Of a stretch of DNA of 64,000 bases, positions 12,261 through 50,092 are shown piece by piece. How positions within the stretch are numbered: the stretch's first letter is position 1; each line of letters begins with the position of its first letter. Location: contig CAUJIM010000088.1 of the NCBI GenBank assembly GCA_963205335.1, positions 27,669 through 91,668 of the forward strand. Reading direction: 5' to 3'. The position numbers and the translations under genes are program-made. Source of the stretch: Pseudomonadota bacterium. GTDB taxonomy: Bacteria; Pseudomonadota; Gammaproteobacteria; Burkholderiales; Burkholderiaceae_C. The notes beneath the pieces were generated by a model. That model had not been told where the DNA came from. It saw nothing but the letters and a program-made list of their open reading frames with translations, and searched no databases.

Positions 12261-12364
12261 TCAATCCACGCCCGCCATTGCTGGCGAGCGATGCGTCGTC
12301 GGTCTTGATGTCGCTCATGGACAGCTTGTTTCAATCCACGCCCGCCATTGCTGGCGAGCGATGC
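12261..12364 (-). CRISPR. Minimal type I-C CRISPR array: two repeats, one spacer
   Basis: A 34-bp sequence (TCAATCCACGCCCGCC... on the plus strand) occurs at 12261-12294 and 12331-12364. The leader-proximal copy extends to 12328, giving a 37-nt repeat that, read on the minus strand, folds as CGCTCGCC/GGCGGGCG and ends with the type I-C handle TGGATTGAAAC. The distal copy has lost its last three bases, as terminal repeats often do. The single spacer is 33 nt (12295-12327). Repeat boundaries rest on only two copies. It lies directly downstream of cas2 and reads in the same direction as the cas genes. Confidence 0.9.
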
Positions 12365-12600: not shown

Positions 12601-12891
12601 CTACAGAACCAGTGGCCCTTCAAAGTCCATCGCCTTGAAATGACCATGCTCGATGACTTCAAAGCCGCGCGAACCCGGCACGCGGTAGAGTCGCAGACAA
12701 TCGAGTTCCGGGTCGATGATTGCCAGCAGGCGACGCTCCAGGTCCTCGAATCGCGCCTGGTCGATCTGGCACTCGAACACCGATTTCTGTACTCGCTGGC
12801 CGGTGCCTTCGCATACCTTGGCGACGCGGCGCAGACGGCGTCGGCCCGCGGTGGTTTCGGTATTGACGTCGTAGCACACCAGCACCAGCAT
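12601..12891 (-). CDS. cas2: CRISPR-associated endoribonuclease/integration factor Cas2 (type I-C)
   Basis: This 96-aa protein starts with [11 protein letters not shown], the first beta strand with the conserved Asp of Cas2, and has the usual ferredoxin-like length. [23 protein letters not shown] matches the type I-C subfamily. It would form the Cas1-Cas2 (with Cas4) complex that inserts new spacers. It starts 11 bp after cas1. Confidence 0.94.
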
Positions 12892-12902
12892 CGCAGCACA
12901 TC

Positions 12903-13931
12903 CTACTTGGGCACGAAGGGAACGTAGGGCGCACCGTCCTCGCGCACCGCACGCGCCAGCAAGCGCGCCTGTACCAGCGGCACCAGGCCCAGGGGAACGG
13001 CTTGCGCCAGCAGGGGGTGGGTGATTTCGTCCTTCTTGCGCTCCTGGAAGGCCACGACCACGGCCTTGCGCGCATCGGGCTGCAGCGCCACGCCGCCGCC
13101 TTCGCGCAGATCGAAATCATCGACCTTGACCTGTCCCCGGTTGATGAGGGTGAGCGCCAACCGGTCGGCCCAGGGACGGAATTCCTCCATCAAATCCAGC
13201 GCCAGCGCCGCACGCCCCGGGCGCAAGGCGTGCAAGAAACCTGCTTGCGGATCGAGTCCGGCAGCTTCGAGGGCGCTGCGGCAGTCATTCATCCACATGG
13301 CGTACAAGAAGGACAGCAGGGCGTTGAAACGGTCGCGTGGCGGCCGGCGCGTGCGCCCGTCCATGGCGAAGGCTTCACGCTGCGGTGGGCGCACTAGTAG
13401 GTTCAGGCCGCTGAAATACTGGCGTGCGGCCTCGCCTTCCAGGCCGCGCAGGGCATCGAGGCTGTCCGCACTCGGCAATGTGCGCAGTGTGGCGGCGAGA
13501 TCGTCGGCCAGGCGGGCGAGGACTTTGGTTTCGTTGGCAGACACCGCCTCGCGCGCACCACGCTGCAGGACTTGGCGAGCGTTCTTCACCTTGCCCGCCA
13601 CGCAGGCACGCGCCTGATCGAGAGTGAAGGCCGGATCCGCCAGGCGCTGGAACTGTGCCTGGCGCAGCAGCACGTTGCCACTGACGGCGCCCTCCAGCCG
13701 GGCCTTGAAGCGCCCATTGTCGTCCAGGAGCACCAAGGCAATGCCTTCGTCGGCCAGGCGGTGCATGAGGGGAGCGGACAGGCCCGCATGGCCGAAGCAG
13801 ACTACCGCCGTCAGGTGATGCAGCGGCACGCGCAACCGGGTTTCACGCTCGACCTCAACGCGCAGGGTGTCGTTGTCCAGGCGCAGCCAGGCATCGGGCA
13901 GGGTAACGTAGAGGGTGTTGAGCAATTGCAT
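12903..13931 (-). CDS. cas1: CRISPR integrase Cas1 (type I-C)
   Basis: This 342-aa spacer integrase starts at ATG 13931 ([20 protein letters not shown]), the usual type I-C N-terminus; the track ORF adds 27 upstream codons lying partly in cas4. The nuclease signature [25 protein letters not shown] is intact, with the active-site histidine and acidic residues in place. It is separated by 11 bp from both cas4 and cas2, so the adaptation genes form one unit. Confidence 0.95.
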
Positions 13932-13942
13932 GGCGCGAACGG

Positions 13943-14596
13943 TCAGCGGTCGGGGTCGAACAGTGCCTGCCGGGCCTGGGCCAGCGCACCGTGCGTGGCC
14001 TGGGGCTGGCAACGCTCCTGCAAGGAGCAGCCCTTGCAGCGCCGCGCGGCCTGTTCGCCCTGCAGGGGCGGCGGCAGTTGGCCGCTGGCCAGCATCTGCC
14101 GCACGGCGTTGGCCACTTCGATCACCTGCGCGCGCAAGGCGGGGGTGATGGCCACGACACGGCGGCGGCGTGAGCTGGCGTAGTACAGCGCGCCTTCATG
14201 CACGGCCTTGCCGGTCATGGATTCCAGGCACAGCGCCTGGGCGGCCAGTTGCAAATCGTCGCAGGCGGCGATGTCGGCGGCTTTGTGGCGGCTGCCGTGT
14301 TTGTATTCCACCGGGTAGGGGGTGCCGTCGGACAGGAACTCGACCACGTCGGACTTGCCGATCAGCCCCAGCGCGTCGTGCCACAGCGGCAGGGCGCGCT
14401 CCACACGCACGCCTTTGGCGGTTTCCACGCCGGGGTGATCGACCCTGGCATGCACGGCCTGGCCGCGCAAGGTGTGGATGTTGTCGTCGAATACCTGCTC
14501 CAAGTGGATCAGTCCGCATTGGCGCGGGCAGTAGCACCAGTGCTGCAGGGCCGACAAGGCAATTGGCTCCAATTCGGTTGAATCTGGCATAAGCAC
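13943..14596 (-). CDS. cas4: Cas4 exonuclease (type I-C, RecB-like Fe-S nuclease)
   Basis: This 217-aa protein processes and orients prespacers by PAM recognition before integration. The N-terminal cysteine segment CYCPRQCGLIHLEQ and the C-terminal cluster CKGCSLQERC provide the four [4Fe-4S] ligands, and the RecB-type motif is visible in PVEYKHGSRHK. It is preceded, with an 11-bp gap, by a Bro-N/DinD-like gene rather than directly by cas7. Confidence 0.93.
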   Translation of the reverse strand: MLMPDSTELEPIALSALQHWCYCPRQCGLIHLEQVFDDNIHTLRGQAVHARVDHPGVETAKGVRVERALPLWHDALGLIGKSDVVEFLSDGTPYPVEYKHGSRHKAADIAACDDLQLAAQALCLESMTGKAVHEGALYYASSRRRRVVAITPALRAQVIEVANAVRQMLASGQLPPPLQGEQAARRCKGCSLQERCQPQATHGALAQARQALFDPDR

Positions 14597-14607: not shown

Positions 14608-15489
14608 CTATGGTTTTTTTCGCTTAGGGCGGGCTTGCCGCGCCTTGGGTGCGGCAAGCACCGGGGCATCCGCCTTGGCCTGGGACGGCAGGTAGTTGGC
14701 GCCTGTCACCACCGATTGGCCGGTCTGGTTTTCCAGTTGCTCGCGCGCCTGGCGGGCGATACGGCCGCCGGCCTGGGCTGCGCCCTTGTTCTGCTGCAGG
14801 CCGGTGGCGTCTTGCCGCTCGGCGATCTGGCGCGTGGAGAGTTCGGCCAGCGCCGTGAAGATCAGCTCGGCCTCGCTCATGTGGTCGCGCAGGTTCTGGC
14901 TTTGCAGACCTTTCCTGGCCTTGTGCGCAGCCACCGACAGGCCCGCCCATTCCTGGTGGATGAGGTTGGTGAGGATGGCGTATTCGCGCCCCTGCTGTAC
15001 GCCGTGCTCGCTCCAGTAGTCGGTGAGCTTGTTGCGCGTTTCCTGGCCGGTCATGCGCTGCTGGATCCACTTGTCGCTGCGTCCCAGTTGCCGCCAGCCC
15101 TGGCGCGCGCGATCCAGCGCCTGGGCGGGGTCGGCCAGCTCCTGCATGCGCTCGTAGCCCACCTTGGCCAGCCAGAGCTTGATGGGCTCGGCCTTGGGGC
15201 TGGGGATGGATTGGACCAGGCGCAGCAGCGTGGGAGCGGTGGCGCAGTCGGTCTCGCGCTGCTTGCCATCGGCGGAGGGCAGTTTCAACTGTACGATTTC
15301 AGCGTACGGTTGATTCGAGCCCGCTTCCTGAGTCAGCTTGCGCTTGAGGTCGGACCAATACCGGCGGGCATTGTTGGAGTCCGTCAGGATTTGCACGATG
15401 TCAATGACGGAGAACCACCAAGTGTCCGTCTCCTGGTCGTACACACGGCGGATGGATGCACCGTCGAATTGGGTGGGCAGGATTTTCAT
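14608..15489 (-). CDS. Bro-N / DinD-like protein embedded in the cas operon
   Basis: This 293-aa protein has an N-terminal BRO-like domain (FDGASIRRVYDQETDTWWFSVIDI) of the kind found in phage antirepressors. Its C-terminal half resembles E. coli DNA-damage-inducible DinD, with the order EYAILTN..., ARKGLQSQNLRDHM, then the Q/A-rich IARQAREQLENQTGQ. The extreme C-terminus is strongly basic (APKARQARPKRKKP). It sits between cas7 and cas4 with gaps of 12 and 11 bp, equal to those between the adaptation genes, so it is an integral operon member. It is not part of the canonical I-C set, and its role is unknown; DNA binding is inferred. Confidence 0.8.
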   Translation of the reverse strand: MKILPTQFDGASIRRVYDQETDTWWFSVIDIVQILTDSNNARRYWSDLKRKLTQEAGSNQPYAEIVQLKLPSADGKQRETDCATAPTLLRLVQSIPSPKAEPIKLWLAKVGYERMQELADPAQALDRARQGWRQLGRSDKWIQQRMTGQETRNKLTDYWSEHGVQQGREYAILTNLIHQEWAGLSVAAHKARKGLQSQNLRDHMSEAELIFTALAELSTRQIAERQDATGLQQNKGAAQAGGRIARQAREQLENQTGQSVVTGANYLPSQAKADAPVLAAPKARQARPKRKKP

Positions 15490-15501: not shown

Positions 15502-16488
15502 TCAGCACATCCGGCGCAACTTGACACCCGGCGCTGCCTCCACCTCGGCGCCCACTGCCAGGCCTTGCCCGTCAAACGTGACGCTGTAGGCATCGAAGCT
15601 GCGCGCCACTTGCCCCGCCTCGCGGGGTGCCGCCTTCAGGCGCTCGAACAAGGCGTGCGCCGGGGCGTTGCCCAGTTCGCTCTCGTGGGCAAAGACGTAG
15701 AGACCGCGCGTGGCCATCTGGCCCCGGGCGGCGCTGCGGTCATGCTCGAACATTTGCGCCAGCGCCTGCCACAGCAGTTGCAGGTCGTCCTGGTCGAAGC
15801 CGGTCTGCTTGGCGAGAAAGGAGGAGACGAAGCCATGCGCCACGTACACCCCGTAGGGCACGGTGTGCTTGCGGCCCATGGTGCGGTTGTCGCCCTGCTG
15901 TTTTTCAGCTTCGGCCTCGGTGGCCACGGCCATGCGGGTGATGGAATGCTCCAGCGCGACGACGGGCTCGACCGAACGCGCAAAGGTCAGTTGCACCGGG
16001 CCGCGCACCTGACCGCAGTTCACGCCCGTGGACATGACGGCGCCAAAGGTGCGCACGTCGAAGAAGTTCTGGCACATCCACTGCCGCGCCAGCGCCACCT
16101 CGTCGGCGCTGCCCTTGCGCTTGTCCTTGCCGGGTTTTTTCTTCTTTGCGTCGTTTGCTGTGTTTTCAGTAGCATCTTCCGCTTGTTCCTCGGGCGCTGC
16201 GGCCAGATTCAATGCCGAATAGGCGCGCTGGTTCTGGTGGTTCAGGATGGCCTTTTCCCGCACGTAGATCTCAAAGCGCTTTTCGCCATCCGCGGGGATG
16301 CGTTCTACCTGCTCTTTCACCAAACCCACGAAGTTGCGCACCTTGCGCTTGAGCGCCACATCGGTCACCAGGCCATGGCCGGTTTCCGCGTCCAGGCGCG
16401 GCATGTTGCCCGCGTCGGGGTCGCCGTTGGGGTTGCCGTCTTGCACGTCGAAAACAAGAACGAAGTCGTAGCGTTGCGTGAGGCTCAT
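15502..16488 (-). CDS. cas7: Cascade backbone protein Cas7 (Csd2, type I-C)
   Basis: This 328-aa protein would polymerise along the crRNA as the backbone of the I-C effector. The start [31 protein letters not shown] is typical of Csd2. A lysine-rich low-complexity insertion ([17 protein letters not shown]) lies near residue 110. Its ATG overlaps the cas8c stop as ATGA, implying coupled translation. Confidence 0.95.
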
Positions 16489-16877
16489 GCCAAATCTCCT
16501 GCGGGGTGGGTATCGGGGGTGTCGTTGGCACCGGGCTTCTTGCTGTAAAAGTCCTGGCGCTGGTGGTAGTAGCCCAGGGCAAAGCGGCCCTGGTCGGGCA
16601 GGGCCAGGTGCGCGGGAAAGTCCGCCACGGGCCCCAGCACCTCGGCCAACAGCTTTTCAAACCACTGCGCACGCCCGGGGTTGAGTTTTTTCAGGTGCGC
16701 GTTCTTCAGCCGCAGCAAGGTGGTGAACACCGCCACCGGGGTGCTGGACGCGGCACCGTAGTAACGATCGCGGATGGTGGCGTTGAGCCCTGGGCTGGCT
16801 TCTTCCTGGGCCTTTTCCAGCACCGCGAAAAGCCGCCCGAGCCGGTAGGCGGCGTGGGTGTTGTCGGGGTCGAGCAT
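16485..16877 (-). CDS. cas11c: Internal in-frame product Cas11c within cas8c
   Basis: Type I-C systems are known to make a separate small subunit, Cas11c, from an internal start near the 3' end of cas8c. Here an in-frame ATG at 16877 ([17 protein letters not shown]) is preceded by a strong Shine-Dalgarno sequence, GAAGGAG, with the AAGGAG core ending 10 nt before the start codon. The product would be 130 aa, the expected size, and mostly helical. The internal start is inferred from the ribosome binding site and family knowledge. Confidence 0.65.
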
Positions 16878-18254
16878 GGGCAGAAACTCCTTCTCTGTGC
16901 TTTGGCGAAAACGGATATGGCGGTTGATGCATGCCTTGATGGCCGCGGCACGCAGGTAATTGACGTTCTGCTCGGCACGGCAGCGGCCCACGGCGGCGTT
17001 GAGCCACAGGCGCGGATAGGGAACGTTCTCGCCGCCCAGCATGGCATCGACGATGGCGCCGCCCAGGTTGGGCGGGATGTTGTCGGCCTTGCCCTGCAGC
17101 GCCACGGCCGTCAGCAGGCGAAACATCGACGGGTATTGCGGATCGTGCGGACCGCGTATCAGCTCCAGGTCATGGAAATGCTGGACGATGCGTCGCCCCA
17201 GATCGCGCAGCGGCAGGCAATGGTGGAAGCGCACGCTGATGCGTGCCGCGTTGGGGGCCAGGCCCAGCACATGAAAGCGTGTCTCGCCCTCGGGGCCGGC
17301 GAGCTTGCCGCTGCGCAGGGCGTCAAACAGCGCGTGAACGGCACGCGTGCCTTGGTCAGGATCGTCCTTGGGTGGATCACCAAAGATGTCGGCCAAGGAC
17401 GTTTCAAAGTCGGATGCCCGCTCGGCCCAGAACACGGTGGAGGCATCGCCCACCTGGATGCGCTGGGGCGAATCCTTGCGCAACAGGTGGTTCAGTGCCG
17501 TGGTGTAGGCGAAGGCCGCAGCGCGGCTGACCGGGGCGTTTTCGCCCTGGCGCTCGGTCTTGCCATACGACTCGAAGGAGCGGGCGTTGAACGAGACAAT
17601 GTTGGCCCCCGAGGTTTGCGCGCCCCATACTCCTTTGATGGTGGCATGCAGGCGTTCCACCGGTGCCTGTTGCCCCGTGACCAGGCACACCGCCTGCGGC
17701 GCATCGTCGTCCGCCGTGGCGTTCAACGCGGCCTGGACCACGGCCGGACGCTGGCACACCAAGTCCAGATCGCCGTGCAGCCGAAAGCTCAGCACGGCAT
17801 TGCTTTCCAGCGCATCATCCCAGGCCGGCTGGCGTTCCAGCTGCGCCACGTCCAGCCGCTGCAGAAAGCGCAGCACGGCTTGCAGGCCGGCGTCCTCCCG
17901 GGCTGCCTCGGGCAGCGCGGCGATGCGGGCGCGAAACGCGGCATGCTGCTCCGCCACGCGTTCGGGCTTGCCCTTGGTGTCCACGCCGAGCACGTATTCG
18001 AGGGTGTCCCACAGCAGGTTGGCCGCCACGCCCGAGGTCTTCTTGACACCCATGGGCACCCGGAAAACCTGGGCCACCTTCTTTTTGCCCCGCAACTCGC
18101 GCGTATCGCGCAGTTGCAGCAGTTCGCCTTCGGCATCGATCTCCAGGATGAACGGAATTTCCTTCTGCTCCAGGCCGAAGGCAGGCAGGCGCTGCGCCGG
18201 GTCGGGGTCGTCGCACTTGCGGCGGTAGTAATCATGAAGGGCTTGCAAGATCAT
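16485..18254 (-). CDS. cas8c: Large Cascade subunit Cas8c (Csd1, type I-C)
   Basis: This 589-aa protein recognises the PAM and starts R-loop formation in the I-C effector. The start [18 protein letters not shown] at ATG 18254 is the family N-terminus and overlaps the cas5 stop as ATGA. Family-typical segments include [35 protein letters not shown]. The C-terminal 130 residues double as Cas11c. It is the middle gene of the tightly coupled cas5-cas8c-cas7 block. Confidence 0.95.
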
Positions 18255-18904
18255 CCGCGTGTCTCCTCGAACGGTGGAACCTGCACCACGCCCTGCTCCA
18301 TCCTGGCGTTGAAGAAGCGCGGCTGCGGGTCGGCGGGGCGGGTGAAGTCCAGGTCGTGCAGCATCCAGCCCAGCTCGCGCGTATCGGGGATGGGCATGGC
18401 GGGCGGCGAGTCGGCCGTCACCAGGCGGAAATCGGCCGCGAACTCGCGGCAGCCCAGGTAGGGCTGGTTCACGCACTGGCCCCTGCTGGCGCGGCGAGCG
18501 AACATTTCGGTGTACTTCACCAAGGGCTCGGCACCGCCCGGCGCGAGCGACAGATCGGCATGGATGCGGTAGGCCACGTCGCGCAAGAAATAACCGGCAC
18601 GCTGCTGGCGTTCGTCCTCGATGGTCAGGCCCAGCGTGCCATGGCCCGCTGCCATGGCCTGCTGCACATTGCGCGTGGACACCACGGCGCTGACTTCGTT
18701 GCGCCGCAGGTTGATGAAGCGAATCGGCCTGAGCACCTCGATGCGCCGTACGCGCCAGCGGATGGCGGGCTTCCACAGCACGGACTCGAACACGGCGCGG
18801 GCGGCCGAGGGCGTCATCACGTCGTAGGAGACGCGCTCCACCTTCATTTCGGGGCGGGTGAAGCAGGCGAAAGGGCCTGCGACTTCAAGGCAAAAGGTGG
18901 TCAT
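18251..18904 (-). CDS. cas5: Cas5 (Cas5d/Cas5c), crRNA-processing Cascade subunit of type I-C
   Basis: This 217-aa protein begins with FCLEVAGPFACFTRPEMKVERVSYDVMTPSAARAVF, characteristic of Cas5d. In type I-C, which lacks Cas6, Cas5d cuts the repeat at the base of its hairpin and stays on the 11-nt 5' handle. The ATG at 18904 follows the stop of the 58-aa ORF by 7 nt and has only a weak ribosome binding site of its own, so translation may depend on that upstream ORF. Confidence 0.94.
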   Translation of the reverse strand: MTTFCLEVAGPFACFTRPEMKVERVSYDVMTPSAARAVFESVLWKPAIRWRVRRIEVLRPIRFINLRRNEVSAVVSTRNVQQAMAAGHGTLGLTIEDERQQRAGYFLRDVAYRIHADLSLAPGGAEPLVKYTEMFARRASRGQCVNQPYLGCREFAADFRLVTADSPPAMPIPDTRELGWMLHDLDFTRPADPQPRFFNARMEQGVVQVPPFEETRG

Positions 18905-19252: not shown

Positions 19253-21508
19253 TTAGATGACATTCCCCAGGGCATCGAATGGAACACCCCCCAAATACAG
19301 CCCAAGCTTTTCGTCATAGAGCCCACCTACCCCTGCCTGCGCGTACAAGCCAGGCACCACAGTTGTTTTCAGGCTCCCTTCCCCAAGCATCTTGAGGGCA
19401 GCTCTCTCGCGGATGCTGACCGTATAGCGTTGCAGCTTTCGCATAAGCCATCGATCGGGGCCTTTGGTTTCCAAGTACCCCAACAACATGTCCACGTCAT
19501 CCTTGGCTTCGGCATACCGAACAACTACGGTGACATTGGCCTCGTCTTCGACCATGCGAAACGCAGCCGCCGCCGCGCGGAACTGCACCGCCAGCGTGCG
19601 CGGCTCCACCTTGAGCTTGTCCACAATCTTGCAGTCGTCCAGATCCACCGAGTGATAGAACGCCGTGAAATAGCGCTCGAACAAGGCCCGCGCCAACGGG
19701 TCGTGCGCTTGCCCGTGCAAGGTGGAGATGCATGCCTCGGCCCCCTTGCGCAGATGGCCCAGGGGCGGCTGCTCTGGCGGTACGAACACCACCACGCGCC
19801 CCTGGCCGGGCAGGCACCCTTCGCGGTTGCAGCGCCCTGCGGCCTGGGCGATGGAGTCGAGCCCCGCCAGGGCCCGGTAGACGACGGGAAAGTCGATGTC
19901 CACCCCGGCCTCCACCAATTGCGTGCTGACGACGCGCAGCGGCTCCAAATCCCGCCCCTCGCGTTTGGCCTGCAGGCGCTCCTTGATGTGGGCAATGACA
20001 TCCTGGCGGTGCGCGCCACACATCAAGGCCGACAGGTGCAGGGTGCCCTCGGGCATCAGGCGCTGCAGCTCGCGCGCGGCCTTGCGGGTGTTGACGATGG
20101 CCAGCACGCAGTCCTCGGCACTGAGCTGCGCCGCGATGCCGGCCCACGGGGTTGGGGTGGTCCAGTCGGGCGGCAGCTCGACCTGTACGCGCTTGAGGGC
20201 CTCGAACAAGGTGTCTGGGTCATCGATGATCTCGCGCACGTTTTCCAGCCCGCGCAGGCTCTTGCTGGCGTCGAAATATGCAGTGCTGTTCAGCGCGGGC
20301 TGCGTGGCGGTGCACAGCACCACCGTGACGCCGTAGTGCGCCACCAGCAGGTTGAGCACGTCCAGAACCGGCTGCAGGAATGCGGGCGGCAGTTGCTGCG
20401 CCTCGTCCAGCACGATGACGCTGCCGGCGATGCGGTGCAGCTTGCGGCAGCGCGAGGTGCGGGCGGCAAAGAGCGATTCGAAAAGCTGCACATTGGTCGT
20501 GACGATGAGCGGCGCGTCCCAGTTCTCGCAGGCCAGGCGGCTGCGGGCGTTCTCGTCCTCGGGCGCGGATTCGGCCTGGCTGTGGTGCTCGACCAGCACC
20601 TCGTCGCCAAGCGCCGCCAGCGCTGTGCGAAACACATCCGCTGTCTGCTCGATGATGCTGGTGTAGGGGATGGCGTAGATCACGCGCTGCTGGCCGTGGG
20701 CCAGGGCGTGTTCGAGCGCAAAGGCCAGGCTGGAGAGCGTCTTGCCGCCGCCCGTGGGCACGGTCAGCGAGAAAAAACCCGCCGGCAGCGCCGCCTTGGC
20801 GCGGCACTGGCGCAGCACGTCGGCACGCAAGGCGTTGACGGGTGTGACTGCCACGGGCCGCGCCGCCATCCAGCCGTTCAGCGCCGCGTGCATCTGCGCC
20901 AGGGGGGGAAAGCCGCTGCGCCGCGACGGCTTGCCCGTGTCGAAATGCGCTTCGGTGTCGAGAAAGTCCGCATCCACCAGGCAGGAAAACAGCATGCGCA
21001 GCCACAGGGCAAAGCCTTCGCCGCCGCCGGGAATGCCCTGGAGCGTGGGGACGAAGCCACCCGCGCCCAGGATGTCTTCGGGCGGCTGTGCTGCCAGGGC
21101 CTCGGCCAGCTCCTGCTTGCTGTCGGGCGAGGCCAGGCGCGGCGCCAGATCGGTGTCCCAGTCGCCCAGGCCCGCGTGATGCCCCGCTATCAAATAGGCC
21201 AGCACGCGGCCGTAGGGCAGCCTGGGCTGGTCGAGCTGCCGCATGGCCCACAGCGCCCCGGCGGCGGAGTGCGTTTTCTCGCGCCCAGCCACTTTGTGTT
21301 CGATGTGCGCGTCATCGACCTGGCGCACGTAGCGCTGGAAGCCGGGGCGGTATTTGCCCAGGTCGTGCCACAGTCCGGCAAGCGCTGCCCAAGAGGCAGA
21401 GGCTTCCTCACCATCCAGCGCACACGCAAACTGCCTGGCCCGGGCCGCCACGGACTGCAAATGCCGCCTCAGCAAATGACCGCCAGAATGCGCCCAGTAT
21501 TCGGACAT
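19253..21508 (-). CDS. cas3: Cas3 nuclease-helicase (HD + SF2 helicase, type I-C)
   Basis: This 751-aa protein degrades DNA marked by Cascade. The N-terminal HD nuclease domain shows LWHDLGKYRPGFQ, KTHSAAGALWAM and GHHAGLGDWD; the helicase part shows Walker A PTGGGKTLSSL, the DEAD-box variant VLDEAQQLPP and the motif VI region QAAGRCNREG. The ATG at 21508 (MSEYWAHSGGH) follows a GAGGAGAA ribosome binding site, so the track start about 50 codons upstream is rejected. It is separated from the remaining cas genes by a 348-bp gap holding the 58-aa ORF and the crRNA-like unit. Confidence 0.95.
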   Translation of the reverse strand: MSEYWAHSGGHLLRRHLQSVAARARQFACALDGEEASASWAALAGLWHDLGKYRPGFQRYVRQVDDAHIEHKVAGREKTHSAAGALWAMRQLDQPRLPYGRVLAYLIAGHHAGLGDWDTDLAPRLASPDSKQELAEALAAQPPEDILGAGGFVPTLQGIPGGGEGFALWLRMLFSCLVDADFLDTEAHFDTGKPSRRSGFPPLAQMHAALNGWMAARPVAVTPVNALRADVLRQCRAKAALPAGFFSLTVPTGGGKTLSSLAFALEHALAHGQQRVIYAIPYTSIIEQTADVFRTALAALGDEVLVEHHSQAESAPEDENARSRLACENWDAPLIVTTNVQLFESLFAARTSRCRKLHRIAGSVIVLDEAQQLPPAFLQPVLDVLNLLVAHYGVTVVLCTATQPALNSTAYFDASKSLRGLENVREIIDDPDTLFEALKRVQVELPPDWTTPTPWAGIAAQLSAEDCVLAIVNTRKAARELQRLMPEGTLHLSALMCGAHRQDVIAHIKERLQAKREGRDLEPLRVVSTQLVEAGVDIDFPVVYRALAGLDSIAQAAGRCNREGCLPGQGRVVVFVPPEQPPLGHLRKGAEACISTLHGQAHDPLARALFERYFTAFYHSVDLDDCKIVDKLKVEPRTLAVQFRAAAAAFRMVEDEANVTVVVRYAEAKDDVDMLLGYLETKGPDRWLMRKLQRYTVSIRERAALKMLGEGSLKTTVVPGLYAQAGVGGLYDEKLGLYLGGVPFDALGNVI

Positions 21509-21619
21509 GGAAACGTTCTCCTCGAAGGCGACGCCGGCATCTCGCTTGGGTACGCCTTCATACGCGTCACAAGCGTTACCATAGCTGGATAAATCAACAG
21601 TTCCATCAACGTTTACCCC

Positions 21620-23791
21620 ATGTCCGCCCCCGACTGGGCCGCGCAAGCCCTGCAACAGTTCGACGCCGTGGTCGCCGCCACGCCGGGACTGCGCGTGCGC
21701 GAAGGCCAGCGGCGCATGGCCGAGCAGGTGGCGCAGACCTTCGGCCAGGCGCCGCTCGGGCGCGACGGCGGGGAGGGGGACGGTGGCGAGCCCAGGCGCG
21801 CCATCGCGGTGATCGAGGCGGGCACGGGCACGGGCAAGTCGCTGGCCTACGCGGCGCCCGCGATCCGGATGGCGCTGGCGCGCGGCACGCGGGTGCTAAT
21901 CGCCACCGCCACCGTGGCACTGCAGGAGCAGCTGGTGCACAAGGACCTGCCCGCGCTGGCCGCGGCGATGCCAGAGCCGTTCAGCTTCGCGCTGGCCAAG
22001 GGGCGCGCGCGCTACGTCTGCAAGCTCAAGCTCGAACGCCTGGCCGGGGACGACCCCGCCGGGGACGACGCCCTGTTCCCCGACGACCCGGCCGGCACGG
22101 ACGAGACGGCGAGCGCCGAGGCGCGCGGCGCGTTCTACCAGCGCCTGGCGGACGACCTGGCCAGCGGCCGGTGGGACGGCGACCGCGACCAGCTCGCGCT
22201 GCCGCCCGACCCGGCGCTGTGGGCGCCCGTGGCGGCCGTGGCGCACACCTGCACCGGCCGGCACTGCCCGCTGTTCGCCGCCTGCACCTACTACGAACGG
22301 CGCAAGGAGCTCGTCGCCGCGCAGGTCATCGTGGCCAACCACGACCTGCTGCTCTCGTCCATCGGCGCGCGGCTGCTGCCCGAGCTGGACAACTGCCTGC
22401 TCATCATTGACGAGGCGCACCACCTGCCCAAGACGGCGCTGTCGCAGTTCGCCTGCGAGATGGACCTCTCGCGCCTGGCGTGGCTGGCGCAGCTCGCCGG
22501 CCGCGCGCTGCGCGTGGGCGCGCAGGTGCAGGTGGACGACGACGTCGACGTGGCCGCGGGCAGCACCCGCCTGCGCGCCGCGCTACAGGATGCGGAGCGG
22601 CTCATCGTCGACCTGTACGGCGCGCCGCTGCGCGAGGCCGCCGCGCGCGCCCCCGGCCAGGCAGCGAGCCACCGCGCGCGCGTGCCTGCCGGAAGGCTGC
22701 CGCAGCCGCTGACCGACGCGCTCGGCCAGGTGCTGCACCACGCGGGCGATTTCCTGGAGGCGCTGCGCGCGATCGCCAAGGCCTTGCGCGAGCACATCCG
22801 CGAGGAGCCGGGGGAGGCGCGGCGCCTGTCGCAGCTCTATGCGCAGGTGGGCCAGCTCGCGCCGCGCCTGGAGGCGGTGCACGCTACTTCGGCACTACTG
22901 CTGCAGGAGGCGCCCGAGGGCGACGCCCCCGCCGCCAAGTGGTTCACGCTCTCCACCACCGGCGGGGCCGTGGTGGTGCGCGCGCACGCCAGTCCCGTGC
23001 TGCCCGGCGCGGCGCTGGCCGCCCACCTGTGGTCGCGCGTGCGCGGCGCGGTGCTCACCTCGGCCACGCTGGCAAGCTGCGGCAGCTTCGACTTCTTCCT
23101 GCGCGAAGCGGGGCTGGCCGACGATCCCGGCGTCACCACGCTGCAGGTCCCCAGCCCGTTCGACTACGCGTCGCAAGGCACGCTGGTAGCGAGCAGCACG
23201 CAGGCCGCGCCGCGCGAGGTGGCGGCCTTCACGCGCCAGATGATCGAGGCGCTGCTGGCCGACCTGGCCGAGGTGGCGAGCGGCGCGCTGGTGCTCTTCA
23301 CCTCGCGCGAGCAGATGCGGCTGGCCGTGGAGCAACTCCCGCCCGGGCTGCGCGAGCGCGTGCTGGTGCAGGGCCGCCAGCCGCGCCTGGCGCTGCTCGC
23401 ACGCCACCGCGAGCGCGTGGCGCAGGCGCAGCCCTCGATCATCTTCGGCCTGCAGTCGTTCGCCGAGGGCATGGACCTGCCCGGCACGCTGTGCGAATCG
23501 CTCTTCATCACCAAGCTGCCATTCGCCCCGCCCGACGAGCCGGTGGACGAGGCCCGCGCCGAATGGCTGCGCGCCAGCGGCGGCGACCCGTTCATGGACC
23601 TGGTCGTGCCCGCCACCGCGATGCGCCTGGCGCAATGGGTGGGCCGTGCGATCCGCAACGAAGACGACCGCGCCCGCGTGGTCTGCTACGACAAGCGCCT
23701 GCTGCACACCGGCTACGGCCGCCGGCTGCTGCGCGGGCTGCCCGCGTTCACGCTGCAGGAGCGCGCCGCCCTGCCCTCCGAAACCGCATGA
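21620..23791 (+). CDS. dinG: DinG-family ATP-dependent DNA helicase
   Basis: This 723-aa XPD-like superfamily 2 helicase has Walker A EAGTGTGKSLAYAAP and DEAH box IIDEAHHLPK. Four cysteines suited to a [4Fe-4S] cluster lie between them (YVCKLK, HTCTGRHCPLFAACTYY). The C-terminal part shows QSFAEGMDLPG and QWVGRAIRNEDD. DinG unwinds DNA with 5' tails and R-loops, for example at replication-transcription conflicts. It is divergent from cas3 with a 111-bp gap; this is ordinary chromosomal DinG and not the type IV-A CRISPR helicase. Confidence 0.93.
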   Translation: MSAPDWAAQALQQFDAVVAATPGLRVREGQRRMAEQVAQTFGQAPLGRDGGEGDGGEPRRAIAVIEAGTGTGKSLAYAAPAIRMALARGTRVLIATATVALQEQLVHKDLPALAAAMPEPFSFALAKGRARYVCKLKLERLAGDDPAGDDALFPDDPAGTDETASAEARGAFYQRLADDLASGRWDGDRDQLALPPDPALWAPVAAVAHTCTGRHCPLFAACTYYERRKELVAAQVIVANHDLLLSSIGARLLPELDNCLLIIDEAHHLPKTALSQFACEMDLSRLAWLAQLAGRALRVGAQVQVDDDVDVAAGSTRLRAALQDAERLIVDLYGAPLREAAARAPGQAASHRARVPAGRLPQPLTDALGQVLHHAGDFLEALRAIAKALREHIREEPGEARRLSQLYAQVGQLAPRLEAVHATSALLLQEAPEGDAPAAKWFTLSTTGGAVVVRAHASPVLPGAALAAHLWSRVRGAVLTSATLASCGSFDFFLREAGLADDPGVTTLQVPSPFDYASQGTLVASSTQAAPREVAAFTRQMIEALLADLAEVASGALVLFTSREQMRLAVEQLPPGLRERVLVQGRQPRLALLARHRERVAQAQPSIIFGLQSFAEGMDLPGTLCESLFITKLPFAPPDEPVDEARAEWLRASGGDPFMDLVVPATAMRLAQWVGRAIRNEDDRARVVCYDKRLLHTGYGRRLLRGLPAFTLQERAALPSETA

Positions 23792-46351: not shown

Positions 46352-49300
46352 TCAGCCGCAGCTGCCCAGCGCCCCGCACTGCGTGCAGTAGTCGCAGCCG
46401 TCCTTGCGGATCACCGCGTGCGCGCCGCACTCCCAGCACTTCTTGCCGGCCATCGCGGGCGGCAGGCCGCGCGGCGCCTCCTCGGGCGCTTCCAGCGGCA
46501 GCTCCTGCTGCTGCGGCGCGGCCACGCGCCGCGCCAGGATGCTCTGCACCGCGTAGGCCAGCGCCGCCACCTCCGAGTCGTGCCACAGCGGCACCAGGGT
46601 GCCGTCGGGCTTGGCGTAGCTGCCCAGGCGCACCGGGCCGCGGTCCCAGGCCACCTTGCGCATGTCCGACAGCGCCCGCTCCAGGAAGCCGCCGCGCGCC
46701 GCGAGCGACAGCAGCCGCATGCTCGAGGTGATCCACTGCTGCGACTCGCTGCTCTGGCCCACCGGCATGAAGAACTCGATCGCCCGGTCGACCGTGCCGC
46801 CGTGGCCATCGGGCACCGGCAGGAAGGAGACGATGAGGTACAGGCGCTTGTGCCCCTCCTGCGTCCAGTACTCGACCTTCTCGGCCACCGCCGCGAGCCC
46901 GCCATTGGGACGGCTTTCGATCACCGTGCGCATCGGATCGACCGGCGCGGGCGGCGGCTCCGGCGCCTGGGCCGGCGCCTCGGCCCTGGCCTCTTCCTTG
47001 GCCGGCGCCTCCAGCACCGCGCCCAGGATGCTGTTGGGCCGGTAGGTCGCCAGCCCCTTGAGCCCCGAGTGCCAGGCCTGCAGGTACAGGCCCTTGAAGT
47101 CGTCGTAGGGGTAGTCGGCCGGGATGTTGACGGTCTTGGAGATCGCGGTGTCGATGAACGGCTGCACCGCCTCCATCATCGCGACGTGGTCGCTGGCCGA
47201 CATCTCCAGCGCGCTGACGAAGTACTCGGGCAGCCGCTCGACGTTGCCGCCCAGCGTGCGGTACAGGCGCCAGGCGTAGTCCTCGACCACGTACTCGCTC
47301 ATCGTGCCGTCGCCCTCGCGCTTCTTGCGCGTGTAGGTCCAGGAGAACGGCGGCTCGATGCCGTTGGAGGCGTTGTCGGCGAACGCCAGGCTCACCGTGC
47401 CCGTGGGCGCGATCGACAGCAGGTGGCTGTTGCGTATGCCGTGCGTGCGGATGGCCTGCTGCAGGTCCTGCGGCAGGCGGCTGGCGAAGGTGCCCTGGGC
47501 CAGGTAGCCGTCGGCGTCGAACTTGGGGAAGCGCCCCTTCTCCTGGGCCAGCTCGACCGACGCGCGGTAGGCCGCGTCGCGCATGCACTCGGCGATGCGC
47601 ACCGCCATGTCGCGCCCTTCCTGCCGGTCGTAGCGCAGGCCCAGCATCGCCAGCGTGTTGCCCATGCCGGTGAAACCCACGCCGATGCGCCGCTTGGCCG
47701 CCGCCTCGGCGCGCTGCTGCTCCAGCGGCCAGAAGGTCACGTCCAGCACGTTGTCGAGCGCGCGCACCTGCGTCGCCACCACCTGGGAGAAGCGCTCGAA
47801 ATCGAAGCCCGCCTCGCCCGCGAAGCCGAAGGGGTTGCGCACGAAGCGCGTGAGGATGATGGGACCGAGGTCGCAGCAGCCGTAGGACGGCAATGGCTGT
47901 TCGCCGCAGTTGTGCGCATGCAGGCCATTGGCGTCGAAGGCATGGCAGTCGGCGACGGTGACGTCATAGACCATCTCATCGCCATCGTCGTGCAGCGCGG
48001 CCACCGTGGCGGTGAAGCGCTCGCGGTGCAGGGCGCGCCGATAGCCGGCCAAGGCCTGCGCCAAGCACTCGGCCTTCTCGTCATCCGCAAAGCCGATGCG
48101 ATCGGCATACCAGCCGATGTTGTCGCCGCTGATGATCAGTTCATGCTGTGCGCGAGTGGCGTACTCGCGCTGGCTGCCATGGTCATCGGGCAAGCTGCGC
48201 ACCTGCGCCGGGCGCCGGTTTTCATGGATCGTGCTGACAATGCCCATGCGCAGCAGCATGCGCTGCGCAGACTGCAAGACGCCAAGATCGCTCTGCGCCA
48301 AACGCAGGCTGACGCCCTTGTCCTGCGTGTCTTGCACACTGCCATCGGCATCGAACAGGCCACGCAGCACGCCTACGCCGAAATCGGACGAAGCGCGCTC
48401 CATCCGCGGCGTGATCGTCTCGTGCCCCACCTCCATGCCCATCCCGAAGGCCAGGTCGCGCAGCGCGACGCTTGCCATGCGCGCCTCGCCTCGTCCCGCG
48501 ATGGGGCGCTGGAAACCGCGGAAATCGGCACGGTGGCGCAAGGTGGCCGCGGCCGCCTCGGCCGCGCGCACGATGCCCGCAGCCCCAGTCGCGGCATAAG
48601 CCGCCCCCGCATCAGTGCCCACAGCGCGCAGTTCGGGCGCCCAGACGCTAAGCACAGCCTTGTCGGCCCTGAGCGCGCCATCACCCAGCAAAAGCCCGAG
48701 CAGATACCCCTCGGCTTCGGTGCCCTCGCCTGCCCATCCCTGCAAGACACGGTGGTTGCCGAGCAGTACCTCATCGCCCGGTTGCAGCCGTGCGGCGGGT
48801 ACCCACGCCGTCTCCAGCGTGTAGCGCGTCTTGCGCGCCACCCGTCGTACGCGGTGATCGGCCGTGAGCCTGAGCGTGTAGCCCTCGCGCGTTTGCAGGC
48901 GCAACACCGGCTTGCGGCCCGTCTCGAAGAAGCCCTGGCTTTCGGTGGGGTAGACGCGACCTTCGACAACCGCGCCGAACGGCTTGCCGATCAGGTCCGC
49001 GACCTGCGCCGCGCCGTTTTCCGTCATGACCCACGTATCGGCGGTCACGCACGGGTTGGTCGCATCGATGCGCTCGGTGTAGCGCAGGTTGTTGTCGGTG
49101 TTGATGTGGTCCAGGAACAGGATGCCCGGCTCGGCGAAGTCGTAGGCCGACTGCATGATGGTGTCCCAGAGCACGCGCGCGCGCACGGTCTTGTAGACCC
49201 ACTTGCCGTCGGGGCGGCGGTGCGCGCCGTTGCGCTGGCACTCCAGGCTGGGCTCGGCCCGGTGCACCAGCTCCCATGGGCCGTCCTGCTCGACGGCGCT

Positions 49301-49939
49301 CATGAAGGCGTCGGGCACGCCGACCGAGACGTTGAAGTTGTTCCAGCGCCCTGGCGTGCGCTTGGCGGTGATGAAGTCGAGCACGTCCGGGTGGTCGATG
49401 CGCAGCACGCCCATCTGCGCGCCGCGGCGCGCGCCCGCGCTCTCGACCGTCGAGCACGACTGGTCGAACACGTTGATGTAGCTGCACGGGCCCGAAGCCA
49501 TCGAGTGCGTGCCCTTGACCAGCGCCCCGCGCGGGCGGATGCGCGAGAAGTCGTAGCCCACGCCGCCGCCGCGGCGCATGGTCTCGGCGGCCTCGCGCAG
49601 CGCTTCGTAGATGCCGGGAAAGCCCTCGTCGTCCACGCCCTGGATGCAGTCGCCCACCGGCTGCACGAAGCAGTTGATCAGCGTCGCCTGGATGTCGGTG
49701 CCCGCGGCGCTCATGATGCGCCCGGCGCCGATCGCGCCGGCGCGCAGATTCTCCAGGAAGCGCGCCTGCATGGCCTCGCGCAGCCCGGGTTGCTCGACCG
49801 ACGCGAGCGCCCGCGCCACGCGCGCATACAGCTCATCCACCTCGCGCTCGCCATCCTTGAAGTACTTCTCCTGCAGCACGTCCTGGCTGATGTCCTGCAC
49901 GGACAGGCTGGGGGCGAGATCGGTGGATTCACGGTGCAT
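46352..49939 (-). CDS. nrdJ: Adenosylcobalamin-dependent (class II) ribonucleotide reductase NrdJ, with intein
   Basis: This 1195-aa precursor yields a roughly 814-aa class II ribonucleotide reductase after removal of a 381-aa intein. Extein signatures include GGGVGYDFSRIRPRG, SCSTVESAGARRGAQMG and the active-site NPC|GEQPLPSYGCC, which the intein splits. The C-terminal part has SIAPTGTVSLAFADNASNGIEP and a cysteine-rich zinc-ribbon tail, CWECGAHAVIRKDGCDYCTQCGALG. The ATG at 49939 (MHRESTDLAP) is used rather than the start 41 codons upstream. Function: B12-dependent dNTP synthesis independent of oxygen. Confidence 0.94.
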   Translation of the reverse strand: MHRESTDLAPSLSVQDISQDVLQEKYFKDGEREVDELYARVARALASVEQPGLREAMQARFLENLRAGAIGAGRIMSAAGTDIQATLINCFVQPVGDCIQGVDDEGFPGIYEALREAAETMRRGGGVGYDFSRIRPRGALVKGTHSMASGPCSYINVFDQSCSTVESAGARRGAQMGVLRIDHPDVLDFITAKRTPGRWNNFNVSVGVPDAFMSAVEQDGPWELVHRAEPSLECQRNGAHRRPDGKWVYKTVRARVLWDTIMQSAYDFAEPGILFLDHINTDNNLRYTERIDATNPCVTADTWVMTENGAAQVADLIGKPFGAVVEGRVYPTESQGFFETGRKPVLRLQTREGYTLRLTADHRVRRVARKTRYTLETAWVPAARLQPGDEVLLGNHRVLQGWAGEGTEAEGYLLGLLLGDGALRADKAVLSVWAPELRAVGTDAGAAYAATGAAGIVRAAEAAAATLRHRADFRGFQRPIAGRGEARMASVALRDLAFGMGMEVGHETITPRMERASSDFGVGVLRGLFDADGSVQDTQDKGVSLRLAQSDLGVLQSAQRMLLRMGIVSTIHENRRPAQVRSLPDDHGSQREYATRAQHELIISGDNIGWYADRIGFADDEKAECLAQALAGYRRALHRERFTATVAALHDDGDEMVYDVTVADCHAFDANGLHAHNCGEQPLPSYGCCDLGPIILTRFVRNPFGFAGEAGFDFERFSQVVATQVRALDNVLDVTFWPLEQQRAEAAAKRRIGVGFTGMGNTLAMLGLRYDRQEGRDMAVRIAECMRDAAYRASVELAQEKGRFPKFDADGYLAQGTFASRLPQDLQQAIRTHGIRNSHLLSIAPTGTVSLAFADNASNGIEPPFSWTYTRKKREGDGTMSEYVVEDYAWRLYRTLGGNVERLPEYFVSALEMSASDHVAMMEAVQPFIDTAISKTVNIPADYPYDDFKGLYLQAWHSGLKGLATYRPNSILGAVLEAPAKEEARAEAPAQAPEPPPAPVDPMRTVIESRPNGGLAAVAEKVEYWTQEGHKRLYLIVSFLPVPDGHGGTVDRAIEFFMPVGQSSESQQWITSSMRLLSLAARGGFLERALSDMRKVAWDRGPVRLGSYAKPDGTLVPLWHDSEVAALAYAVQSILARRVAAPQQQELPLEAPEEAPRGLPPAMAGKKCWECGAHAVIRKDGCDYCTQCGALGSCG
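47909..49051 (-). other. Intein with LAGLIDADG homing endonuclease domain inside NrdJ
   Basis: The inserted 381-aa segment starts with Cys in CVTADTWVMTENGAAQ (splicing block A) and ends VADCHAFDANGLHAHN with the penultimate His and terminal Asn, followed by extein Cys+1 (CGEQ). Two LAGLIDADG-type motifs are visible, LLGLLLGDGAL and VLRGLFDADGSV, so it probably encodes a homing endonuclease. The insertion point is the highly conserved NPC active-site region, a known ribonucleotide reductase intein site. The frame is intact, so splicing should be functional. Confidence 0.93.
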
Positions 49940-50053
49940 GGCGAGGGGCTCCAGACAAGAGGAAAGCGGCGGGAAATGAAATCGTGGGGGCGTACTCGGG
50001 AGAGCCGCGACCGGTTCGAGCGTATCGACCCAACTGATGATACATACAGTTTT

Positions 50054-50092
50054 TTGCGTCACGCTGTTGCGTCACGTTCTTGCGTCGCGCGC
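50054..50092 (-). repeat. Three 13-bp direct repeats upstream of nrdJ
   Basis: TTGCGTCACG begins at 50054 and 50067, and a variant TTGCGTCGCG at 50080, giving an exact 13-bp period. The array lies about 115 bp before the nrdJ start, in the divergent gap shared with the ChaN-like gene. It could be a protein-binding cluster; it does not match the NrdR box I know. Confidence 0.5.

Follow-up and report, generated by a model that had tools for sequence, protein, structure and literature searches.

A Bro-N gene within a type I-C cas operon, a distant relative of the SOS gene dinD, and its family in other DNA-cutting defence loci

The gene between cas7 and cas4 of a complete type I-C operon, hereafter BRO, belongs to a family that also occurs in restriction-modification and other defence loci and as stand-alone genes. 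Many of the stand-alone copies are preceded by a LexA box, whereas no such box was found upstream of the copies embedded in cas and hsd operons. Our preferred but tentative reading, for which we hold something short of even confidence, is that BRO is a DinD-type SOS gene that was captured by nuclease-based defence operons, where its probable targets are the DNA ends or RecA filaments to which the operon's own nuclease gives rise.

The window, i.e., the whole 64,000-nucleotide stretch that was analyzed, holds the operon in the order cas3-cas5-cas8c-cas7-BRO-cas4-cas1-cas2, and the seven genes other than BRO are genuine I-C cas genes (Table 1). The position originally predicted for BRO is borne out by the sequence: it lies on the same strand as its neighbors, with gaps of 12 bp (cas7-BRO) and 11 bp (BRO-cas4, cas4-cas1, and cas1-cas2, each). 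The complete operon adjoins a CRISPR array of just two repeats and one spacer. On the other side, cas3 is divergent from a dinG-type helicase gene, and the LexA-like box between the two is present in one close relative (the closest) and absent from three other dinG-adjacent loci. Since it is absent from these three, the box is read as probably being the operator of dinG itself; an effect on the cas operon is possible, and LexA control of that operon is not claimed. In relatives, the dinG site carries stand-alone BRO genes, i.e., the chromosomal site of the window's cas operon is occupied in L031, L049, L149, and L155 by a stand-alone BRO gene with its own LexA box beside dinG (the gene is broken in L155). 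Exchange at this site may run in either direction. Elsewhere in the window, an ORF on the minus strand (46352-50062) looks by eye like a B12-type ribonucleotide reductase with an intein, and a LexA-like box with one mismatch lies near its start (50034-50049).

Table 1. Features of the window around the type I-C operon
Feature	Position	Strand	Remarks
Minimal I-C-type array	12261..12364	.	two 34-nt repeats, one 36-nt spacer
cas2	12601..12891	-	
cas1c	12903..13931	-	
cas4	13943..14596	-	GTG start, 11 bp after BRO
BRO	14608..15489	-	Bro-N, aa 15-109; DinD-type helical C-terminal domain, ~aa 130-252; basic tail; PADLOC PDC-S13, PHROG 15286
cas7c (csd2)	15502..16488	-	last effector gene; effector modules swapped at the cas7/BRO boundary in relatives
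cas8c (csd1)	16485..18254	-	
cas5c	18251..18904	-	
cas3	19253..21508	-	longest ORF reaches 21655; ATG at 21508 fits homologues
LexA-like box	21585..21600	.	CTGGATAAATCAACAG, with 1 mismatch; lies 77 bp ahead of the cas3 ATG, between dinG and cas3 (intergenic region of 111 bp)
dinG-type helicase gene	21620..23791	+	divergent from cas3

BRO starts with ATG, is present in a single copy in the genome, and encodes a protein of 293 aa. Its N-terminal part matches Pfam Bro-N (PF02498, 1.8e-10), while the PADLOC profile PDC-S13 (aa 7-274, 8.5e-117) and PHROG 15286 (4.4e-84) both match over the full length; neither of the latter two has an assigned function. The basic C-terminal tail noted in the original prediction is real, with eight K/R and one D/E among the last 30 residues, and the tails of 101 relatives have a similar composition (29% K/R and 2% D/E). 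Neither a catalytic motif nor a toxin domain could be recognized in the protein. The AlphaFold model (mean pLDDT 65, pTM 0.43) is good for the Bro-N domain only, with no confident model of the C-terminal domain, and a fold search of the PDB with it gave no significant match. The top-ranked structure, that of the DNA-binding damage protein DdrC of Deinococcus (7qvb), has a nonsignificant E of 0.15 and no sequence relation shown, and is a lead only; the resemblance to the Mbp1 DNA-binding domain is likewise weak and nonsignificant.

A relation to Escherichia coli DinD had been predicted, and it is real in the C-terminal domain, where BLASTP gives 28% identity over 141 aa (E=2e-8) and where the two proteins have the motif KGL..(L)xDHM..EL in common. 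E. coli DinD also carries Bro-N at its N-terminus (PF02498, 1.5e-7), and the N-terminal match between the two goes no further than this broad family. The NCBIfam DinD model hits aa 132-252 of BRO (2.6e-5) with 23.7 bits and misses its equivalog cut-off of 242, and the profile-profile comparison by hhalign is weak (probability 3.5%, E=0.012, with thin alignments). On these matches BRO is a distant relative of DinD and is not filed as DinD itself. The two proteins resemble each other in length, in the Bro-N N-terminus, and in a related helical C-terminal domain; they differ in that the identity is confined to the C-terminal 141 aa, far under the equivalog cut-off, and in that BRO of the window, unlike dinD, is embedded in a defence operon and lacks a LexA box of its own. 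Three papers cite DinD as inhibiting postsynaptic RecA filaments (PMC4457935, with reference to Uranga et al. 2011; PMC10602874; PMC4129442).

The LexA boxes strengthen this connection. The 150 bp upstream of the BRO copies were searched for CTGT-N8-ACAG with at most one mismatch, with shuffled sequences as controls. Of the 45 stand-alone copies, 18 have such a box, against a mean of 2.2 and a maximum of 6 in the shuffles; the best-matching box of each copy lies between -39 and -92, and 11 are perfect. In contrast, none was found upstream of the 36 cas copies, the window gene included, or the 17 hsd copies (Fisher 8e-8 for stand-alone vs embedded), a comparison in which the stand-alone group mixes contexts and taxa and near relatives share boxes. 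The lexA and recA promoters of seven family genomes carry the same box, one-mismatch variants included, and many of the 27 stand-alone or other-context copies without this box type come from taxa outside this motif check. E. coli dinD has a perfect LexA box at -61, a distance similar to that in the stand-alone BRO relatives. The damage link that had been proposed for the gene thereby becomes concrete, and the damage/RecA direction gains evidence. Together with the C-terminal match to DinD, the boxes mark the BRO family as DinD-like SOS genes that are without LexA control inside cas and hsd operons.

The family extends well beyond CRISPR-Cas. About 17 relatives lie beside hsdM and hsdR, for which Pfam confirms HsdM (N6_Mtase/HsdM_N) and an EcoEI-type HsdR. 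Further relatives adjoin Mrr nucleases, BrxD together with a DEAD helicase (BREX-like), or a PLD protein, and many stand alone. The stand-alone copies are under strong purifying selection (median dN/dS 0.055 for stand-alone pairs; the values for the cas and hsd copies are 0.099 and 0.087), and they occur in several genomes that are 90-100% complete and without any Cas1 (G009, G400, G090, and G270). A role specific to CRISPR, or to adaptation, is therefore not supported, given the relatives at type I restriction-modification, Mrr, and BREX-like loci and the stand-alone copies that purifying selection maintains in Cas1-less genomes. A suicide toxin restrained by Cas proteins is unlikely as well, given the intact stand-alone genes in genomes without cas1. 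To see the stand-alone copies as mere leftovers of deleted cas operons is right only in part, since the conserved ones have their own LexA boxes. Leftover pieces of cas genes accompany stand-alone BRO in L012, L063, and L086. In a survey of 401 genomes, 5 of 12 BRO copies that have no cas operon next to them are broken, as against none of 12 embedded ones (p=0.04), so that loss of the operon does at times relax selection on BRO. Either the stand-alone copies regained their boxes, or it was from such copies that the cas operons captured theirs; the quick tree described below does not fix the direction.

These contexts also bear on the possibility that BRO is an autonomous single-gene anti-phage system that senses or attacks phage alone and is merely embedded, gaining from joint expression and transfer. 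We regard this alternative as rather unlikely. BRO relatives are embedded in cas, hsd, Mrr, and BrxD loci, as expected for PDC-S13, and PDCs are defined by guilt-by-embedding (PMC12988326). The full-length PDC-S13 match thus speaks for an autonomous system, as do the low dN/dS of stand-alone copies, Cas1-less genomes included, and the acceptance of toxin-antitoxin pairs in the same slot (see below). However, PDCs are described as unvalidated (PMC12988326), the protein has no recognized catalytic motif or toxin domain, and LexA control of the stand-alone copies suggests a response to damage first. Like BRO, PDC-S13 and PHROG 15286 are matched over the full length and found embedded in defence loci, but their definition carries no mechanism. 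In the literature searched, SOS control, the I-C slot, and cas4-cas1 co-inheritance were not found described for PDC-S13; nothing relevant was found on PDC-S13 or on DinD with CRISPR, nor any experiment on the BRO family. Phages and plasmids yielded distant BRO relatives only (<60%).

Within CRISPR-Cas, BRO belongs to one lineage of type I-C. A scan of 84,980 species genomes found more than 560 BRO relatives, and cas genes were mapped around the best 80 of these and around whole-genome hits. In this set, about 36 distinct I-C loci, nearly all from Comamonadaceae, have BRO placed after the effector genes and before cas4-cas1-cas2, so that a gene restricted to this strain is rejected. Among the 401 family genomes, which were also surveyed for Cas1/BRO adjacency, BRO is beside cas1 in 11 of the 14 whose Cas1 is at least 82% identical to that of the window and in 0 of the 44 with a more distant Cas1. 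This adjacency exceeds chance, and the two counts argue that BRO is tied to one lineage and is no core I-C gene. BRO is missing from three complete I-C operons whose Cas1 is of the same group as the window's. With the family common outside CRISPR, BRO does not qualify as a dedicated I-C cas gene either. The survey of I-C loci called for by the original prediction thus finds the gene repeatedly at the cas7/cas4 site. The related claim that BRO is not a random insertion is supported by its fixation at this junction over many Comamonadaceae genera and by its co-inheritance with Cas4 and Cas1.

In a quick tree of 105 rows, the cas-embedded copies of Comamonadaceae form one 57-row clade (SH-aLRT 80), with stand-alone copies nested within it. 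The copies of L067, arranged as cas4-BRO-cas1, and of L064, next to a Cas1f gene, group apart on a supported branch of their own, so that cas loci acquired the family on at least two occasions. In L064 (8986-10852), BRO comes immediately after a type I-F cas1, and the two precede a separate I-C operon. Between cas7 and cas4, L067 (8444-9364) has a RhuM-family gene; like BRO, this is an extra gene placed at the cas7/cas4 junction, although it belongs to another protein family and is split there into two ORFs. In L027 and L033, a divergent I-C-like effector module with the unusual order cas5-cas8-cas7-cas3 lies upstream of BRO; NCBIfam models gave no match to its Cas5 or Cas8, and the module of L027 follows an ORF resembling a WYL-type regulator.

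BRO is inherited with the adaptation side of the operon. In several loci the effector genes are 25-35% identical to those of the window, yet BRO, cas4, and cas1 are 70-90% identical. Pairwise BRO distances correlate with those of Cas4 (rho 0.57) and Cas1 (0.61) but not with those of Cas7 (0.02), Cas8 (-0.02), or Cas5 (0.11), which indicates that effector modules are exchanged at the cas7/BRO boundary. The correlation with Cas3 (0.38 overall and 0.70 among 20 loci with close effectors) is left unexplained by this picture. Co-inheritance fits a tie to adaptation, and also fits mere linkage on the cas4 side of the boundary. A dedicated accessory of Cas4-Cas1-Cas2, e.g., one that holds or protects prespacer ends, would account for the place beside cas4, for inheritance with Cas4 and Cas1 over effector exchanges, for the independent cas4-BRO-cas1 and cas1f-BRO arrangements, and for the breakage seen among copies without a neighboring cas operon and not among embedded ones. 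It is nevertheless improbable: close relatives reside in restriction-modification and other defence loci, stand-alone copies are conserved without any cas1, some I-C operons do without BRO, and the co-inheritance also follows from the recombination boundary. Quite improbable, too, is a transcriptional regulator acting on the defence operon through Bro-N. Bro-N proteins are DNA binders by annotation, and the faint resemblance to Mbp1 points the same way, but BRO is the fifth gene of the operon and not promoter-proximal, and the sole upstream motif that was tested and found, the LexA box, is absent from the embedded copies.

The slot that BRO occupies also receives other genes. Genes in the GC-rich junction gaps were called by frame composition and homology checks, and the cas7/cas4 and cas4/cas1 junctions of this I-C group hold Pfam-checked HicBA, RelE/HTH, HigBA, ParE/antitoxin, and PIN/FitA (VapBC-like) pairs, often antisense. 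Such pairs were seen in L007 (11414 region), L022, L024, L030, L010, L033, L021, and L003, and further in L157, L159, L193, L196, L198, L200-L202, L205, L207, L208, L176, and L178. When counted by hand with duplicate genomes removed, complete pairs occur in 13 of the 24 loci that lack BRO and in 8 of the 36 that have it (p=0.014); BRO partly replaces toxin-antitoxin pairs here. The junctions are thus an insertion hotspot, and as the cassettes fill the slot with similarly short gaps, the equal spacing and common strand that had been taken as a sign of function weigh less. A lone HicB without HicA, as if the toxin had been replaced by BRO, lies between cas7 and BRO in L010, L016, and L032; it precedes BRO in these three loci only, and no partner gene is fixed beside BRO. 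Hence BRO resembles the pairs in its junctions and in its kind of cassette insertion and differs from them as a single gene of another fold that is kept without a partner. That BRO is a passenger or addiction-like cargo functionally unlinked to the operon, as the pairs at the same junctions might imply, is the least probable reading, given the missing antitoxin, the intact stand-alone copies that argue against Cas-restrained toxicity, and the repeated presence in nuclease loci with low dN/dS.

We therefore return to the reading of BRO as a captured DinD-type gene. Cas3, HsdR, and Mrr, which represent the clearest of the host operons, all cleave DNA, so that a role in limiting repair or SOS at the cut is the simplest function that these contexts have in common. 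In this model, the Bro-N domain and the basic tail would hold the protein on DNA, and the targets of the DinD-type helical domain would be DNA ends or recombination intermediates, its simplest mode of action being to destabilize RecA filaments. Being produced together with Cas3 (or HsdR), BRO would be on hand at the time of cutting, with no wait for SOS induction, and need not contact Cas proteins. As a result, the cut invader would be less able to undergo RecA-dependent repair and to escape or, alternatively, the host genome would suffer less from SOS and recombination damage.

How invader DNA stays unrepaired after cleavage by CRISPR or restriction systems, and how cells escape SOS and recombination trouble caused by their own nucleases, are open questions. 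The presence of BRO-family genes in DNA-cutting defence operons suggests that bacteria pair such defences with a handler of broken DNA. A broader form of this idea, which we consider possible but on balance doubtful, is that a LexA-controlled DinD-like handler was captured more than once by nuclease operons, trading SOS control for co-expression with the nuclease, and constitutes a general "cut and block repair" module of CRISPR-Cas and type I restriction. The data reveal the cas7/cas4/cas1 junctions of this I-C group as a hotspot common to BRO and toxin-antitoxin pairs, and they give PDC-S13, an unvalidated defence candidate, a concrete functional lead (SOS/DinD). Moreover, a damage gene that is without LexA control wherever it sits inside a cas or hsd operon makes the question of repair after cleavage testable.
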